The notes under the pieces are model-generated. The model saw nothing but the letters and a program-made list of their open reading frames with translations. It did no database searches and was not told the DNA's origin. From positions 1-24,927 of IMG/VR virus record IMGVR_UViG_3300021579_000037: a DNA stretch of 24,927 bases; one strand, 5' to 3'. This document shows positions 12,213-18,145 of this stretch, piece by piece; positions within the stretch are counted from its first letter, which is position 1, and each line of letters starts with the position of its first letter. Origin of the DNA: a virus. The position numbers were made by a program, and so were the translations under genes.

Positions 12213-13703
12213 ATGTCAGCAAAGACCCTGGACAAGGGCCGGGCGAGAGCGCTCCTGGCCGAGAAGCGGCGGCGGGAAAGGTTTCCCGCCGCCGTTGCGG
12301 CTTTGGTGGCCGGGCTGTTCCCGGCGCAGCGCCGGATCTACGACAGCAAGCACCGGCGGATCGTCTGCCACGCGGGCCGACGCGGCGGTAAGACGGCCGT
12401 GCTGCTCGCGCTGGCCCTATCCAGCGCGCTGGCACACCCGGGCGCGATGGTCCCGATCATCGAGCGGACCCTGAGCTGCGCCGCCGCTGACACGCTGTGG
12501 CAAGAGCTTCAGATGTGGGCCGTGACCCACAACGTGGACGTGGTCTTCCAGCACACGCTGAAGATCGCCACGTTGCCCAACGGCGCGTACCTGCAGATGT
12601 GGGGTGCGGACACCGCGGAGGCGGCCGACAAGCTGCGCGGTGGCAAGTACCACACGGTGCTTGTGGACGAGGTAGGAGCGTGGCGCAGCAGCATCCTGCG
12701 CTTCCTGGTGGTGGACGTCCTCGAGCCCGCCACGTTCGACTACCGCGGCCACATCTATCTGTTTGGCACGCCCACCGTCCTGAAGGATGGCTTCTTCTGG
12801 GACACTGTGAACAATCCGGGGTGGGAGTGCCACCACTGGGATCTCCGCGACAACCCGTACCTGGGCGCGTCGCGCGAGGAGCGGGAAGCCCAGCTTGCCG
12901 ACGTCCGGGCCACGAACCGCTGGACCGAGAAGACATCGCAGTACATCCGCGAGTACCTCGGCCTGTTCACCGACACGTTTGACGAGTGCATCTACGCGCT
13001 CGGTCCGCACAACATGGTCACCGCGCTCCCTGACGCCCCGCTGAGCGCCTGGACCTACGGCCTGGGCATCGACGTGGGCACGGTCGAGCCGTGCGCCCTG
13101 TGCGTCGTGGGGCGCGTCGACGACGCCCCCGAGCTGTACGTGGTCAAGTCCTACGAGCTGCCGGGTGCGACCCCCAGCGTCCTGGCCGCGCACGTCGAGC
13201 GTGCGCGAGACGAGTTCCCGCTCTATTGGATCGTGGTGGATGAGGGTGGCGCGGGCAAGGGCTACGCGGAGGAGATGCGGCGCAGCTACCAGATCCCGTG
13301 TCGGCCCGCCCAGAAGACGCTGAAGCAGGCCAACATCGAGTTCATCGCGGGCGACATCGCTAGCGGGCGCATCAAGATCGGGCCTGGCAACGGCCACCTG
13401 GCAGAGGACCTGCGCAACCTGGCATGGAACGACGGCCGCACCGACGTGGCCCGCGGCATTCCCGACCATCTTCCCGACGCTTTCCTCTACGCCATGCGCG
13501 AGCTGCGCGCGTTCGCGCCGACGGGCATGGGCGACCGTGACGCGCCGGTGCGCGGCACGGCAGAGTGGTTCGCTGCGGAAGAGGCCCGGCTGGAAGCCGT
13601 GGCCGTCGAGCTGGCTGTGCGGCGCGATGAAAGTTGGGACGAAGTGCTTGACCGGGACCTGGACGTGGACCATGATGAAGTCGAGGATTGGGACTTCGAC
13701 TGA
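12213..13703 (+). CDS. Terminase large subunit (DNA-packaging ATPase/nuclease)
   Basis: The 496-residue packaging motor. ATPase domain: Walker A CHAGRRGGKT (52-61), Walker B VLVDE (149-153) and the coupling motif YLFGTP (182-187). RNase H-like nuclease domain: GIDVGT (D287), IVVDEGG (D343) and DHLPDAFLYAM (D422). It is typical in length. The acidic C-terminus (DLDVDHDEVEDWDFD) probably contacts the portal. The ATG at 12213 has only a weak AGGA 14 nt upstream. A small subunit is not recognisable nearby, and the portal gene is 7.4 kb away rather than adjacent. Confidence 0.93.
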   Translation: MSAKTLDKGRARALLAEKRRRERFPAAVAALVAGLFPAQRRIYDSKHRRIVCHAGRRGGKTAVLLALALSSALAHPGAMVPIIERTLSCAAADTLWQELQMWAVTHNVDVVFQHTLKIATLPNGAYLQMWGADTAEAADKLRGGKYHTVLVDEVGAWRSSILRFLVVDVLEPATFDYRGHIYLFGTPTVLKDGFFWDTVNNPGWECHHWDLRDNPYLGASREEREAQLADVRATNRWTEKTSQYIREYLGLFTDTFDECIYALGPHNMVTALPDAPLSAWTYGLGIDVGTVEPCALCVVGRVDDAPELYVVKSYELPGATPSVLAAHVERARDEFPLYWIVVDEGGAGKGYAEEMRRSYQIPCRPAQKTLKQANIEFIAGDIASGRIKIGPGNGHLAEDLRNLAWNDGRTDVARGIPDHLPDAFLYAMRELRAFAPTGMGDRDAPVRGTAEWFAAEEARLEAVAVELAVRRDESWDEVLDRDLDVDHDEVEDWDFD

Positions 13704-13928: not shown

Positions 13929-13962
13929 CATGGGGGCTTGCTCCCATGCGGCTCGTTGAGCC
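13929..13962 (+). other. Two tandem RNA hairpins downstream of the terminase operon
   Basis: CATGGGGG/CTCCCATG (13929-13948, loop CTTG, one G-T pair) is followed 1 nt later by GGCTC-GTT-GAGCC (13950-13962). Together with the larger terminator-like stem that follows, they fill the gap with structure. They may protect transcript 3' ends or form a small RNA; no tRNA TpsiC-arm consensus is present. Confidence 0.45.
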
Positions 13963-13964
13963 AG

Positions 13965-14020
13965 AAGCCCTCGCGGTCCCCGACTCGGGCAGGTCGGGAC
14001 CACCGCGGGGGCTTCGTTTA
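13965..14020 (+). terminator. Probable rho-independent terminator after the terminase operon
   Basis: AAGCCC (13965-13970) pairs with GGGCTT (14009-14014), and the inner arms around CGCGG/CCGCG and TCCC/GGGA extend the stem. It is followed by CGTTTATC. The T run is short, so efficiency may be modest. It lies between the terminase operon and the next gene set, which has its own GGAGG at 14031. Confidence 0.6.
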
Positions 14021-15038: not shown

Positions 15039-15159
15039 ATTGTGGAGTAAGATCGACACGTCGGGCGGACCCGACGCGTGCTGGCTGTGGACCGCGTCAC
15101 TTGACACCAGAGGGCGTCGCGAACGGGAACGTCAGCTGCACGGCGCGGCTGCGCAGTAG
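15016..15159 (+). pseudogene. 5' remnant of a CWLW-type HNH homing endonuclease
   Basis: A GTG (15016) or TTG (15040) frame reads LWSKIDTSGGPDACWLWTAS then LDTRG, the standard N-terminus of the same endonuclease family as 1396 and 2539. Homology then stops, and the frame ends at 15159 in an arginine-rich tail without the GYG, His or CNPAHL parts. The break falls where the convergent minus-strand HNH gene ends (15097-15114). The gene was apparently truncated when the right-hand block was joined here. Confidence 0.75.
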
Positions 15160-15447
15160 CGCCTTGCCCAGCTCGATGTCGATCGGTCGAGCGGCGGCGC
15201 GGAGCGCCCGCCTCAGATCTTTCGGGCGCAGCTCTGCGTCCTGTCGGGCGCTGTTGCAGCTGAAGCAGCACGTCACCAGGTTGCTGGCGTCGTTGCTGCC
15301 ACCTCTGCTGCGTGGCGTGATATGGTCGAGCGTCAGATCGGTACCGAGGGGGAACACGCCGCGGCAGTAGACGCAGTCGAAGCCGTCTCGGACGTAGATC
15401 GCGAGCCGCTTCTCGGGACGAATCCACTTCGAACCGTGCTTGTTCAT
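15097..15447 (-). CDS. HNH endonuclease (McrA-like zinc type)
   Basis: A 116-residue HNH nuclease of a different subfamily from the CWLW type. It begins MNKHGSKWIRPEKRLAIYVR and holds CVYCRG, the catalytic LTLDHITPRSRGG (the His of DHI) and NLVTCCFSCNSAR with the HNH Asn. Paired cysteines form a structural zinc site. The ATG at 15447 overlaps the upstream stop as ATGA, with GGAGA further upstream. It is the last gene of the minus-strand block and ends inside the truncated homing endonuclease. It could be a free-standing homing enzyme or a packaging-associated HNH. Confidence 0.85.
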   Translation of the reverse strand: MNKHGSKWIRPEKRLAIYVRDGFDCVYCRGVFPLGTDLTLDHITPRSRGGSNDASNLVTCCFSCNSARQDAELRPKDLRRALRAAARPIDIELGKALLRSRAVQLTFPFATPSGVK

Positions 15448-15632
15448 CGGTAAAATGTCTCCGCGTAGGAGATCCGCGCCAGCTCGTACCAGGCACGCGA
15501 CTGCTCCTGCGCCCACACAGCCAGCCGCGCCCACCGCGGCCCGACCTGCTCGCGCGCGTCTTCCGCCAGACGTGCGAACGTCCGGGCTGTGTGCTGTGCC
15601 AGCACGATCCCACTGTAAGTCTCGACGCTCAT
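15444..15632 (-). CDS. Hypothetical protein, 62 aa
   Basis: It starts MSVETYSGIVLAQHTART behind a perfect AGGAGG and is a single, mostly helical, Arg/Ala/Trp-rich protein. Its stop overlaps the HNH start. It opens the fourth gene pair after hairpin element 1. No motif is recognised. Confidence 0.65.
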   Translation of the reverse strand: MSVETYSGIVLAQHTARTFARLAEDAREQVGPRWARLAVWAQEQSRAWYELARISYAETFYR

Positions 15633-15650
15633 AGTACCTCCTGTTCAGCC

Positions 15651-15685
15651 ACAGAGGGACCCCGAAACTTTCGGGGTCCGACTGT
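15651..15685 (-). repeat. Intergenic hairpin element 1
   Basis: Basal stem ACAG (15651-15654)/CTGT (15682-15685) and upper stem GGACCCCGAAA (15657-15667)/TTTCGGGGTCC (15669-15679). On the minus strand it lies between the stop of the winged-helix gene (whose TGA it touches) and the AGGAGG of the next gene. It shares conserved flanks with elements 2 and 3, but the upper stem differs with compensation. Confidence 0.8.
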
Positions 15686-15906
15686 CACTTAACCGGAGTC
15701 GGGAAAAGGCCGGGCCGCTCGCCGTCGCCGCGCTGCACCCAGCCGCCGCGCACCGCGCGCGCCACCGCGGCCAGCGCCGCCCGCTCGACACAGTCGAGCG
15801 CTAGCTGACGTGCGACGCCCCGCGCAGAGATGCCCGGGTTGGCCTCGACGATCTTTCGGACCGCGCGAATGCGCGGTCCGAGGTGAGTGGTGGGTGCGCG
15901 GCGCAT
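15685..15906 (-). CDS. Winged-helix-like DNA-binding protein, 73 aa
   Basis: A small basic protein with RIRAVRKIVEANPGISARGV then ARQLALDCVERAALAAVARA, and a strand-like WVQRGDGERPGLF end. This is the helix-turn-helix plus wing layout of small winged-helix regulators. The ATG at 15906 has GAGG 8 nt upstream; a GTG at 15912 overlaps the upstream stop and is an alternative start. It is probably a transcription regulator of this accessory region, but the fold is inferred from pattern only. Confidence 0.65.
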   Translation of the reverse strand: MRRAPTTHLGPRIRAVRKIVEANPGISARGVARQLALDCVERAALAAVARAVRGGWVQRGDGERPGLFPTPVK

Positions 15907-15908
15907 GG

Positions 15909-16310
15909 TCACGCGTCCTCGCCGTCGGGATCGTACAGGTTCAGCGTCTCGCCGCTATCAACCCAGCGCTCGAAAAGATCCCACGCTTCTTCGAACGGCA
16001 GCTCATCCACGCCCGCTCGTTCGGCCGCCTCCTGGAACGCGCCCCAGTCGAGTCCGAACTCGGCCTCCGCCTCGCGTAGCCACTCGCGATCCTCCCGGGC
16101 CCCAACGAACGTCCGGCCAACGACGCAGGCGCCCGCGGCTTTCAGGAACCGCTGCATCGCAGTGTCAGGCAGTTCGTCCCGATCTGCTTCCCGCATCAAC
16201 TTTAAGTTAGCCAACGCGTAGGCTGCGCGATAGTGCACGCATCTCATCGGCGGCTGGCTCTGGTCTATTGAGTCGAGCAGGTCGGTGTGCATTCTGACTT
16301 GGATCGTCAT
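15909..16310 (-). CDS. Acidic hypothetical protein, 133 aa
   Basis: It starts MTIQVRMHTDLLDSIDQ behind ATAGGAGGAA, after hairpin element 2. The protein is helical and rich in Asp and Glu toward the end (DELPFEEAWDLFERW, YDPDGEDA). The acidity could indicate a DNA-mimic or inhibitor-type phage protein, but no family is recognised. Its stop abuts the winged-helix gene. Confidence 0.65.
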   Translation of the reverse strand: MTIQVRMHTDLLDSIDQSQPPMRCVHYRAAYALANLKLMREADRDELPDTAMQRFLKAAGACVVGRTFVGAREDREWLREAEAEFGLDWGAFQEAAERAGVDELPFEEAWDLFERWVDSGETLNLYDPDGEDA

Positions 16311-16330
16311 AAAGTTCCTCCTATCGTGCC

Positions 16331-16364
16331 ACAGAGGCGCCCGAAATGTTTCGGGCGCAACTGT
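16331..16364 (-). repeat. Intergenic hairpin element 2
   Basis: Basal stem ACAG (16331-16334)/CTGT (16361-16364); upper stem GCGCCCGAAA (16337-16346)/TTTCGGGCGC (16349-16358) with a 2-nt centre. Downstream on the minus strand comes CTCTGTGGCACGATAG, then GAGGA and the ATG at 16310. It is homologous to elements 1 and 3. Confidence 0.8.
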
Positions 16365-16376
16365 CACAGCGCTAGG

Positions 16377-16607
16377 TCATGAGCGAGTGGCGGAATCGCT
16401 CGCCACTTGCACGCGCCGCTGTTCGAGCTTTTCGCCTTGCAGATTGGCTTTGCGCGCCGCCCGGTCGAGCGTGTGCTTCCCTTCTGGGTGCCAGTTTTTA
16501 CAGCCGGTACACGCCACTGTCGGGCGTTCGACGCGTCGCTTGCGCTCGTAGCGTGGCTTCATGAATCCCTGGCGCATCAAGTCGCACAGTCTCTCTTTAG
16601 CTTCCAT
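16377..16607 (-). CDS. Putative zinc-finger protein, 76 aa
   Basis: A basic protein starting MEAKERLCDLMRQGFMKPRY, with GGAGG 10 nt upstream. The middle CTGCKNWHPEGKH holds a CxxC-x2-H-x4-H arrangement that could bind zinc. Lys/Arg-rich flanks suggest nucleic acid binding. It forms a pair with the 38-aa membrane protein upstream. The family is unknown. Confidence 0.6.
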   Translation of the reverse strand: MEAKERLCDLMRQGFMKPRYERKRRVERPTVACTGCKNWHPEGKHTLDRAARKANLQGEKLEQRRVQVASDSATRS

Positions 16608-16634
16608 GTGTGGGTACCTCCAGATCTTTCGACG

Positions 16635-16751
16635 TCAGAACCAGACGTGGTGGAGCACCGCGCTCACCGCGTACGCGACGTACACGACCATCGTGTACAT
16701 GATGGCGGCGGTTGCCCAGAACATGTAAGCTTGTGCGTTTTCGGTGGTCAT
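16635..16751 (-). CDS. Small membrane protein, 38 aa
   Basis: A 38-residue frame starting MTTENAQAYMFWATAA, with one hydrophobic span (about 9-32) rich in Met, Tyr and Val, ending HHVWF. GAGGAGAG precedes the ATG and it directly follows hairpin element 3. Its position in the regular two-gene pattern supports it. Function is unknown. Confidence 0.6.
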   Translation of the reverse strand: MTTENAQAYMFWATAAIMYTMVVYVAYAVSAVLHHVWF

Positions 16752-16775
16752 GGTGACTCTCCTCGCTATCGGGCC

Positions 16776-16810
16776 ACAGAGAGGGCGGGAACACTTTCCC
16801 GCCCACCTGT
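16776..16810 (-). repeat. Intergenic hairpin element 3
   Basis: Basal stem ACAG (16776-16779)/CTGT (16807-16810); upper stem GGGCGGGAA (16783-16791)/TTCCCGCCC (16796-16804), 4-nt loop. On the minus strand it is followed by CTCTGTGGCCCGATAG, GAGGAG and an ATG. It has the same flanks as element 2 with a compensatorily different stem. Confidence 0.8.
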
Positions 16811-16822
16811 CGCATGCTAGCG

Positions 16823-17071
16823 TCAGGTGAACACGTGGGCGTAGCTGCCGTCAGGTAGACAGCCGGTGACGAACGCAGGGAGCGCCCCCGACGCACGGTT
16901 CCAGCCCAGTCGCACAGTCAGCTCCTTGGCGGCTGCGATGTGGTTGTCCTCGATGTTCAAGTCGTGATCGTAGGGCACTGAGATCTGCACGGCGGCCGCG
17001 TGCGCCGTGATGCGTGAGGCCCGAGTGTTGGTTGGAATGTGGTACTTGGTGTGAATGGTAGTAGAAGCCAT
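16823..17071 (-). CDS. Hypothetical protein, 82 aa
   Basis: It starts MASTTIHTKYHIPTNTRASR, a beta-strand-rich opening, and continues with ITAHAAAVQISVPYDHDLN and a helical AAKELTVRLGW. CGGAGGACACC precedes the ATG. The 29 nt spanning the ribosome binding site and first codons are duplicated (27/29) at the start of the next upstream gene (17248-17276). No known family. Confidence 0.65.
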   Translation of the reverse strand: MASTTIHTKYHIPTNTRASRITAHAAAVQISVPYDHDLNIEDNHIAAAKELTVRLGWNRASGALPAFVTGCLPDGSYAHVFT

Positions 17072-17084
17072 GGTGTCCTCCGTG

Positions 17085-17264
17085 TCAGTGCTTGTTGCAG
17101 ATCTGCTGGTGAGCACCGGTGCGCACGCAGCTCAGGAACGTCACCTCGCGAGCGGTCTTGACGGCGCACTCCTGAGCTGCGCCGTGAGCGGCGACACACA
17201 CCGGGGTGTTCAGCGGCGCAGCCATCAGAAGTGCCCAGAGAGTCGCGATCGTAGTAGCAGCCAT
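17085..17264 (-). CDS. Small secreted cysteine-containing protein, 59 aa
   Basis: MAATTIATLWALLMAAPLNT looks like a short signal peptide or membrane anchor. The rest (VCVAAHGAAQECAVKT and LSCVRTGAHQQICNKH) contains four cysteines that could form two disulfides after export. CGGAGGACACC precedes the ATG. It is the first gene after promoter box 1. A small exported phage protein is likely; its role is unknown. Confidence 0.6.
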   Translation of the reverse strand: MAATTIATLWALLMAAPLNTPVCVAAHGAAQECAVKTAREVTFLSCVRTGAHQQICNKH

Positions 17265-17308
17265 GGTGTCCTCCGTTTCGGGCCGCGTCTCTCGCGACCC
17301 TCACTATT

Positions 17309-17355
17309 AGATTCGCACGATCGGGGTCCGGGCTCAAGGGGAAAAGCGACAGTGG
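17309..17355 (-). promoter_or_regulatory. Promoter/operator box, copy 1 (minus)
   Basis: On the minus strand, TTGAGC (17337-17332), a 17-nt spacer and GAATCT (17314-17309) follow a conserved upstream block. The 23 nt at 17333-17355 are the exact reverse complement of 17895-17917. It should drive the gene pair 17264-16823. Confidence 0.6.
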
Positions 17356-17391
17356 TCGCATTTCGGTGCGAGCCGCGCCTACAGCTGCGTC

Positions 17392-17640
17392 TCACACGAT
17401 CGCGTCAAGGAATGCGCGAATCTTGCGCCCTAGGTCGCTGTCCCATCGCAGGCAGGCGAAACCACTGTCCGGACAGTCGCTCGCATCCTGAATGCCCCAT
17501 GCGGCACGCTCCGGAATCGCGTACACATCATCGCGATCGGTGCTTTCGAGTGCTTCGAGTAGCCCGCAATCGTAGCCGCGCTCGGCAAGCCACTTGACCG
17601 TCTTCATCTCGAAGTCTGTAATGTGAATCTCGTATGCCAT
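17392..17640 (-). CDS. Hypothetical protein, 82 aa
   Basis: It starts MAYEIHITDFEMKTVKWLAE, with AGGAG 8 nt upstream, and ends LRWDSDLGRKIRAFLDAIV. A compact alpha/beta protein with two cysteines in DASDCPDSGFACL; no motif is recognised. It is the second gene of the pair driven by promoter box 2. Confidence 0.65.
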   Translation of the reverse strand: MAYEIHITDFEMKTVKWLAERGYDCGLLEALESTDRDDVYAIPERAAWGIQDASDCPDSGFACLRWDSDLGRKIRAFLDAIV

Positions 17641-17658
17641 GTCTGCTACTCCTGTGGT

Positions 17659-17805
17659 TCAGCGGGCGGCGGCGAGACGCGCGAGCACCAGCTCAGTGAC
17701 CGGCTGCGGCTTGCCGCGCAGCGTCGCACGTGCGGCGGCATTCGCCAGCACCTGCTCCACTCGCGCCATCGGCCAGCTGCCCGTCAGTGTCATCGTCGTT
17801 CCCAT
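17659..17805 (-). CDS. Small protein, 48 aa, near-leaderless first gene
   Basis: A 48-residue frame starting MGTTMTLTGSWPMARVEQ and ending TELVLARLAAAR; helical and basic. The ATG at 17805 lies 5 nt after the -10 box of promoter copy 2 and has no Shine-Dalgarno sequence. A second in-frame ATG at 17793 is an alternative. It is the first gene of the minus block. No function known. Confidence 0.55.
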   Translation of the reverse strand: MGTTMTLTGSWPMARVEQVLANAAARATLRGKPQPVTELVLARLAAAR

Positions 17806-17810
17806 GACTA

Positions 17811-17856
17811 ACAATACGGCCGATCGTGCCCGGGCTCAAGGAGAAAAGAGGCAGTG
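17811..17856 (-). promoter_or_regulatory. Promoter/operator box, copy 2 (minus)
   Basis: TTGAGC (17839-17834), 17-nt spacer, TATTGT (17816-17811), then 5 nt to the ATG at 17805. The upstream block (17835-17856 on the plus strand) matches copies 1 and 3 with several changes. It is back-to-back with copy 3, giving divergent transcription. Confidence 0.6.
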
Positions 17857-17894
17857 ATCGCTTTTTGTGTGCAGGATGTAGGCACGAAATGCAG

Positions 17895-17941
17895 CCACTG
17901 TCGCTTTTCCCCTTGAGGGCAGCCCTGGATCGTGCGATGAT
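17895..17941 (+). promoter_or_regulatory. Promoter/operator box, copy 3 (plus)
   Basis: The conserved block begins CCACTGTCGCTTTTCCCC and runs into TTGAGG (17913-17918), a 17-nt spacer and GATGAT (17936-17941). The ATG of the next gene follows 6 nt later, so the transcript would be almost leaderless. 17895-17917 is an exact inverted copy of 17333-17355. Confidence 0.6.
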
Positions 17942-17947
17942 TTAGAC

Positions 17948-18145
17948 ATGGACAGCGACACACCAACCCCGATGCACCCGAGCTTCAACCCTGACATCGC
18001 CTGGGCGGTCGCCAGCGCCTCCGCTGAGCTGCACCGTCAGGAGATGCGCCGCATCCAGGAAGCGCGCCGCCTAGCCGCCCTGCTGGAGCCGGAGGACACT
18101 CGCCCGACCATCCGCGTCCCTGCCCCCGCCACGTTCCGCTGGTAA
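17948..18145 (+). CDS. Small hypothetical protein, 65 aa, near-leaderless
   Basis: It starts MDSDTPTPMHPSFNPDIAW, continues as a charged helix (ELHRQEMRRIQEARRLAALL) and ends PAPATFRW. No ribosome binding site; the ATG is 6 nt downstream of the -10 of promoter copy 3. First gene of the rightward early-type operon. No known domain. Confidence 0.6.
   Translation: MDSDTPTPMHPSFNPDIAWAVASASAELHRQEMRRIQEARRLAALLEPEDTRPTIRVPAPATFRW

Follow-up and report, generated by a model that had tools for sequence, protein, structure and literature searches.

The intercistronic RNase III sites of phage T7 (R0.3, R0.5, R1, R1.1, R1.3 and the late sites) stand in several copies among small early genes, each in the order stop codon, hairpin, Shine-Dalgarno sequence (SD), start codon; R1.1 has been placed between genes 1.0 and 1.1 (PMC6121014). 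Occlusion of a ribosome binding site (RBS) that is relieved by RNase III is known from lambda cIII and E. coli adhE (PMC5371410). The start-associated sequences (SASs) and extended start-associated sequences (ESASs) of cluster K phages are also repeated elements beside start codons, with an inverted repeat followed by ...GATAGGAG... (PMC3203893, PMC11373665, PMC12699233). The ESASs contain 17-bp inverted repeats. Their authors argue that these do not pair as RNA (PMC3203893), and SigA-type promoters were located in them more recently (PMC11373665). Repeated dyads are known as well from Cluster O and EG actinophages, the EG copies being found just upstream of starts (PMC4351075, PMC7302621). 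Here we describe three hairpin elements (H1, H2 and H3) lying between small genes on the minus strand of IMGVR_UViG_3300021579_000037, an IMG/VR virus fragment of 24,927 bases ("the window"). Their pairing is conserved and covaries, and they may well be processing hairpins of the T7 kind.

Structure and covariation of the hairpin elements

The three intergenic hairpins (H1, 16776-16810; H2, 16331-16364; H3, 15651-15685) exhibit a common ACAG/CUGU base and CUCUGUGGC, as an initial annotation of the window had reported. The element is nevertheless larger than that annotation proposed. Each hairpin extends below ACAG/CUGU into an outer helix that reaches or enters the SD, and small internal loops divide the resulting helix of about 19-24 bp. 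This outer helix pairs CGCUA, CCUA and CUCC with UAGCG, UAGG and GGAG, so that the GATAG/GAACAG box, previously taken for an RBS region, is also a structural strand. In the window the outer helix of H1 is that of the centroid fold, the minimum-energy fold pairing the H1 flanks otherwise, and the SD of H1 (GAGGAG) lies immediately 3' of the element. H2 folds as CCUA-G-CG-C-UGU-G-ACAG-UU-GCGCCCGAA-ACAU-UUCGGGCGC-CU-CUGU-G-GCA-CG-A-UAGG, with the beginning of the SD included in the outer helix. The H3 fold, CUCC-G-GUU-A-AGU-G-ACAG-UC-GGACCCCGAA-AGU-UUCGGGGUCC-CU-CUGU-G-GCU-G-AAC-A-GGAG, ends in GGAG; its outer strand is therefore the SD itself.

So far only three genomes are known to contain the element: the window, IMGVR_UViG_3300021437_000115 (labels L007/L100), which is about 95% identical to the window ("the 95% relative"), and the 41-kb IMGVR_UViG_3300048998_000197 (labels L005/L008/L009/L055), with about 76-83% identity ("the 79% relative"). 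All three hairpins occur in the 95% relative and one element in the 79% relative, where the architecture is the same but AUGC/GCAU substitutes for ACAG/CUGU and the upper stem differs. The upstream stop codon lies within the outer helix or 0-2 nt ahead of it in seven of seven copies. RNAfold z-scores range from -3.8 to -5.1 in six of the seven; those of the window hairpins are -3.8, -4.9 and -5.1, none of 200 shuffles being equally stable.

The full compensation first claimed for the upper stems is weak evidence among paralogous hairpins, since self-pairing is a property of every hairpin. The claim finds better ground in the swap of the basal stem just described, in orthologous copies of H2 and in a held-out model. 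Between the window and the 95% relative, a C-G pair of H2 is replaced by U-A, changed on both sides, and all other differences in the core (ACAG stem, upper stem, loops) are confined to loops. A covariance model (R2) built on five elements of these two genomes, with the 79% relative held out, identified in the latter its element as the sole significant match (40.7 bits at E = 4e-10, the runner-up lying at 0.11; the E-values are rough owing to a shortened calibration, and the copies are related), whereas a sequence-only model (R3) from the same alignment returned nothing there at E<=5 with default filters. Two-sided changes are observed in 13 of 20 pairs, a count reached by none of 500 shuffles; 92.9% of cells are paired, and covariation is 0.581, against 0.269+-0.037 for shuffled and 0.06-0.15 for slid alignments, although such pair counts lean towards the structure, which was derived from the same sequences. 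The replacement of G-C by G-U pairs (U-G for C-G next to the GxG mismatch, and U-G within the upper stem of the 79% relative) points to RNA. Together, the held-out comparison and the pair counts support the earlier proposal that structure rather than sequence is under selection.

A sequence-blind descriptor of a hairpin followed by an RBS gave three hits in the window, three in the 95% relative and one element in the 79% relative, which exceeds chance; 28 distant relatives taken by their terminase yielded a single hit, and shuffled sequences hardly any. The one weak descriptor match in the record L018 is unsupported by the covariance model. Model R1 gave no match in 29 distant terminase/polymerase relative records, which says only that R1 does not match those records. 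Homologues with compensatory changes, which the initial annotation had named as its test, were thus found in the two closest ones and not in these 29. Pattern scans of viral contigs with TTTCGGGN{2,5}CCTCTGTGGC and CTGTGGCNNGATAGGAGG, and of genome contigs too, returned, beyond the L007 contig, only chance matches without a hairpin, and a longer pattern returned only the known 79% relative. No Rfam family reached its gathering threshold.

A palindrome similar to the upper stem of H1, GGCGGGAAAGGTTTCCCGCC, is present within the terminase gene (12270-12292).

Likeness to RNase III sites and competing readings

Folding of T7 R0.3, R0.5, R1 and R1.1 gave an upper stem of 9-10 bp, a loop of 4-5 nt, a small internal loop and an interrupted lower stem, with a stop codon before and an RBS after. 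The window elements share this plan (upper stem of 9-10 bp, loops of 3-6 nt across both sets, small internal loop, interrupted lower stem), and in both systems the copies vary in sequence while the pairing is preserved. Two features expected of a T7-type site are present here. One is the helix, interrupted and at least about 20 bp long, with a 9-10 bp upper stem, a short loop and an internal loop; the other is the intercistronic position, after a stop codon and ahead of the following RBS, in a polycistronic region of putatively early type. A sequence-blind T7 descriptor (8-12 bp in the upper stem, 3-6 in the loop, an internal loop, a lower stem of net at least 6) detected 13 places in the T7 genome. 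Six of them are the known sites R0.3, R0.5, R1, R1.1, R4.7 and R18.5, each 2 nt before the cut position published by Dunn & Studier. Structure, conservation, covariation, position and T7-like geometry are all observed. Given this likeness in shape and position, an RNA-processing element is likelier than something wholly new. That the elements are RNase III-type intercistronic processing hairpins of the T7 early-region type, in a minus-strand operon of small genes, and that they also bury the RBS, is the reading that fits best, and we judge it to be about evenly balanced.

Transcription of the operon as one unit, cleavage, the enzyme and an effect on translation are what we infer, in the following manner. 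The small-gene operon would be read from host-type promoters, and the nascent mRNA would fold at each element into the 9-10 bp upper stem, the 2x2 or 2x3 loop, the 4-bp stem and the mismatch-punctuated outer stems, which would run from the stop codon of the preceding gene to, or just short of, the SD of the next. Host RNase III would cut the internal loop on its 3' side. The distance from this expected cut to the next start codon is 22-28 nt, compared with about 27-35 nt for T7 R0.3, R0.5, R1 and R1.3. The upstream message would then retain a protective 3' hairpin, and the downstream RNA would lose the strand covering the SD, freeing the RBS of the next gene. On a model cut, the predicted openness of the SD rises in each of the six tested copies, clearly in five (e.g. 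from 0.46 to 0.78 in a relative).

Several points weigh against this reading. The SD of H3 barely opens on the model cut (0.33 to 0.35). The T7 descriptor is unspecific, since seven of its 13 matches in T7 and most of its window matches outside the elements are not such sites; with chance matches of this sort, likeness is supported but identity is not. The internal loops of H2 and H3, like that of the copy in the 79% relative, are symmetric (2x2), whereas the T7 sites retrieved are 2x3, R1.1 being described as 4/5, and H1 alone matches them with a 2x3 loop. The window elements also do not exhibit the T7 core (AAGG/CCUU, UAUGA), a sequence which is T7's own feature and which RNase III substrates in general do not need. 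Finally, the conserved GxG/GxA mismatches and ACAG/CUGU could equally be contacts for another protein.

The leading rival is a translational coupling switch without cleavage, in which the outer helix masks the SD until the ribosome ending the upstream gene melts it, so that neighbouring proteins are made proportionately. It is compatible with processing. The stop codon placed in or 0-2 nt before the outer helix in every copy, the pairing of the SD or its adjoining bases, and an openness of the uncut SD of only 0.22-0.46 are all as such a switch would have them. A simple mask, however, needs neither the 9-10 bp upper stem nor the internal loop nor the 4-bp stem, which are the strongest and most protected parts; the SD of H1 lies outside the outer helix, and genes inside the modules are already tightly spaced with no such switch. 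We consider coupling alone unlikely. A binding site for a phage or host protein, repressing or activating the downstream genes as a set, would account for several copies within one operon and for a common sequence focused on ACAG/CUGUGG, the pyrimidine internal loop and the conserved mismatches, as specific contacts would require. It is made decidedly unlikely by the 79% relative, which retained the shape with AUGC/GCAU for ACAG/CUGU, and by the small genes, which yielded no candidate RNA-binding protein.

Partial terminators or attenuators grading expression along the operon would be suggested by G+C-rich stems of 9-10 bp with short loops between genes, but no T run follows the stem, a terminator scan at the hairpins found none, the SD and the next gene follow immediately with no downstream promoter, and a simple terminator has no need of a conserved outer helix; an intrinsic terminator was accordingly set lower, and this role is very improbable. 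Least probable of all is a DNA recombination boundary for cassette exchange, folding as an attC-like single-strand hairpin. At H1 and H2, homology to the 95% relative does restart no more than 1-2 nt from where the outer helix has its 5' edge, and in the 79% relative genes 17071 and 16751 have traded places across the hairpin. Yet each exchanged gene has a plain gene start at its other end, breaks occur without a hairpin, the copies are all in one orientation and adjoin an RBS, G-U pairs are tolerated, and no integron-type recombinase was noticed. Among the three roles guessed in the initial annotation, processing sites fit best, regulator targets and recombination boundaries ranking lower.

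Genes, promoter-like boxes and gene exchange

The positions of the elements, genes and boxes are listed in Table 1. Ten minus-strand open reading frames, all open and all initiated by ATG, three hairpins and two minus-strand promoter-like boxes stood as first annotated. The extent of the element, the strength of the compensation and the generality of the gene pairs did not; a third, divergent copy of the box was not mentioned there. The two-gene module holds for five of five modules in the window, but module 2 is a single gene in the 95% relative, and in the 79% relative several genes succeed one another after the hairpin without a second one between them.

Table 1. Elements, genes (named in brackets by their start) and promoter-like boxes of the putative minus-strand operon; aa, amino acids
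Feature	Position	Strand	Description
H1, full element	16764..16822	-	outer CGCUA/UAGCG, GxG mismatch, ACAG/CUGU, 2x3 internal loop, 9-bp upper stem, 4-nt loop
H2, full element	16320..16376	-	outer CCUA/UAGG, ACAG/CUGU, 2x2 pyrimidine loop, 9-bp upper stem GCGCCCGAA/UUCGGGCGC, 4-nt loop
H3, full element	15638..15698	-	outer CUCC/GGAG over SD, GUU/AAC, AGU/GCU, ACAG/CUGU, 2x2 loop, 10-bp upper stem, 3-nt loop
Module 1 gene a (17805)	17659..17805	-	48 aa, orphan; homologues in L100 and L055
Module 1 gene b (17640)	17392..17640	-	82 aa; a different gene at this place in L007
Module 2 gene a (17264)	17085..17264	-	59 aa, orphan; kept in all three genomes
Module 2 gene b (17071)	16823..17071	-	82 aa, phrog_3199 family; missing in L007; 3' of the hairpin in L009
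Module 3 gene a (16751)	16635..16751	-	38 aa, hydrophobic
Module 3 gene b (16607)	16377..16607	-	76 aa; L007 has a paralogue of gene 16310 instead
Module 4 gene a (16310)	15909..16310	-	133 aa, orphan; stop codon directly after
Module 4 gene b (15906)	15685..15906	-	73 aa; stop codon and 3' end fall within the outer helix of H3
Module 5 gene a (15632)	15444..15632	-	62 aa
Module 5 gene b (15447)	15097..15447	-	HNH endonuclease
Promoter-like box 1	17313..17365	-	CCACTGTCGCTTTTCCCCTTGAGC-17-GAATCT, upstream of gene 17264; conserved at L009 5057-5125
Promoter-like box 2	17815..17869	-	CACTGCCTCTTTTCTCCTTGAGC-17-TATTGT; same layout in L009
Third promoter-like copy	17885..17937	+	divergent; repeat

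The operon is located after the boxes (CTTGAG-17-GAATCT/TATTGT), which are also present in the 79% relative; a strict sigma-70 scan found no promoter at them. With the divergent boxes (17800-17960), genes 17805 (minus strand) and 17948-18145 (plus strand) would start leaderless, at or next to the transcription start. Elsewhere, a 70-bp stretch directly after a small gene (13950-14019), 87% identical in the 79% relative, exhibits G+C-rich inverted repeats and is a possible terminator of the plus-strand operon.

The small genes are orphans except for the phrog_3199 and HNH members. Homologues of the phrog_3199 gene (17071) are found near the left ends (early regions) of T7-like Pseudomonas phages and also in other proteobacterial phages; an actinobacterial host is not to be assumed. 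The window further encodes a DnaB-like helicase, a YqaJ/RecE-type exonuclease, a Dam-like methylase, a family A DNA polymerase, a terminase and a T7-gp8-like head-tail connector. A search of an isolate phage collection with the window DNA gave no match. Searches with the polymerase, the terminase, the head-tail protein and gene 16310 led to no close relative other than these two, the remaining matches being distant terminases and a single distant polymerase, and a polymerase search of genome contigs returned none. The record of the 79% relative opens within the terminase gene.

In comparison with the window, the 95% relative has gene 17640 replaced, gene 17071 missing and gene 16607 replaced by the paralogue of gene 16310. 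This second copy, about 74% identical, lies just upstream of H2, at the place of gene 16607 (L007 8049-8349 and 7052-8053). The restart of homology at H1 and H2, within 1-2 nt of the base at which the outer helix begins, is an independent mark of the 5' edge of the element. The gene order of the 79% relative, 17264-16751-hairpin-17071-15906-HNH, shows that genes 17071 and 16751 have swapped sides. The element thus tends to keep its place while neighbouring genes move. The coincidence of elements with gene-content breakpoints, proposed as a test in the initial annotation, is borne out in the 95% relative at the edges of H1 and H2. At its other end, each exchanged gene has an ordinary gene start, and the elements are for this reason not established as special recombination sites; two breakpoints without a hairpin lie at promoter box 1 and within the HNH gene, and with only two relatives we make no claim of breakpoint enrichment. 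In the HNH gene of the 95% relative, about 390 unrelated bases (L007 6663-7052) stand in place of 57 window bases (15321-15378).

Comparison with other repeated elements

The initial annotation had likened the elements to SASs/ESASs "but with hairpins". This likeness does not hold: ESASs already have inverted repeats, and bear promoters. ESAS arms are of one constant sequence with -35/-10 hexamers, and their authors report no RNA covariation; the window arms differ among copies and covary, with no conserved 17-bp sequence carrying SigA -35/-10, and a promoter scan at the hairpins found no promoter-like site. GATAG, shared with the ESAS through GATAGGAG, here forms the outer helix on its 3' side and co-changes with its partner (GUU/AAC in H3). 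In place of the 13-bp GGGATAGGAGCCC, near-invariant at SAS starts, the elements exhibit CGATAGGAGGAA, CGATAGCGAGGAG and TGAACAGGAGGTA, with no GGG...CCC frame. Models R1 and R2 found no match in phage Anaya, the ESAS of which reads TTGACATGCATACAG...CTGTATGCAT.TCAAC. On these grounds an SAS/ESAS identity is not supported. The initial interpretation is upheld in part, for selection on structure and for processing. The repeats of Cluster O and EG differ in another way, being nearly invariant DNA palindromes of 17-18 bp, unlike the covarying hairpins with outer helices described here.

A possibility that we hold only tentatively, and on balance doubt, is an undescribed family of intergenic RNA switches: one architecture copied along an operon, its outer helix joining a stop codon to the next SD and staying fixed while genes are exchanged, so that each copy would act as a portable unit that insulates or processes gene cassettes. 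If the elements are RNase III-type processing hairpins, T7-style intercistronic processing would be present in an uncultured phage lineage without a DNA match in the isolate collection searched, and they would show how a phage can swap small operon genes, the stability and translation of each remaining separate. With the covariance model, further genomes can be searched for the element. The added feature would be that the processed helix covers the RBS: an outer helix running up to or over the SD belongs to the window elements and differs from the T7 sites. In lambda cIII and adhE, too, the RBS is held in a structure that a cut can open, but those are single leaders, in contrast to the intergenic family within one operon observed here.

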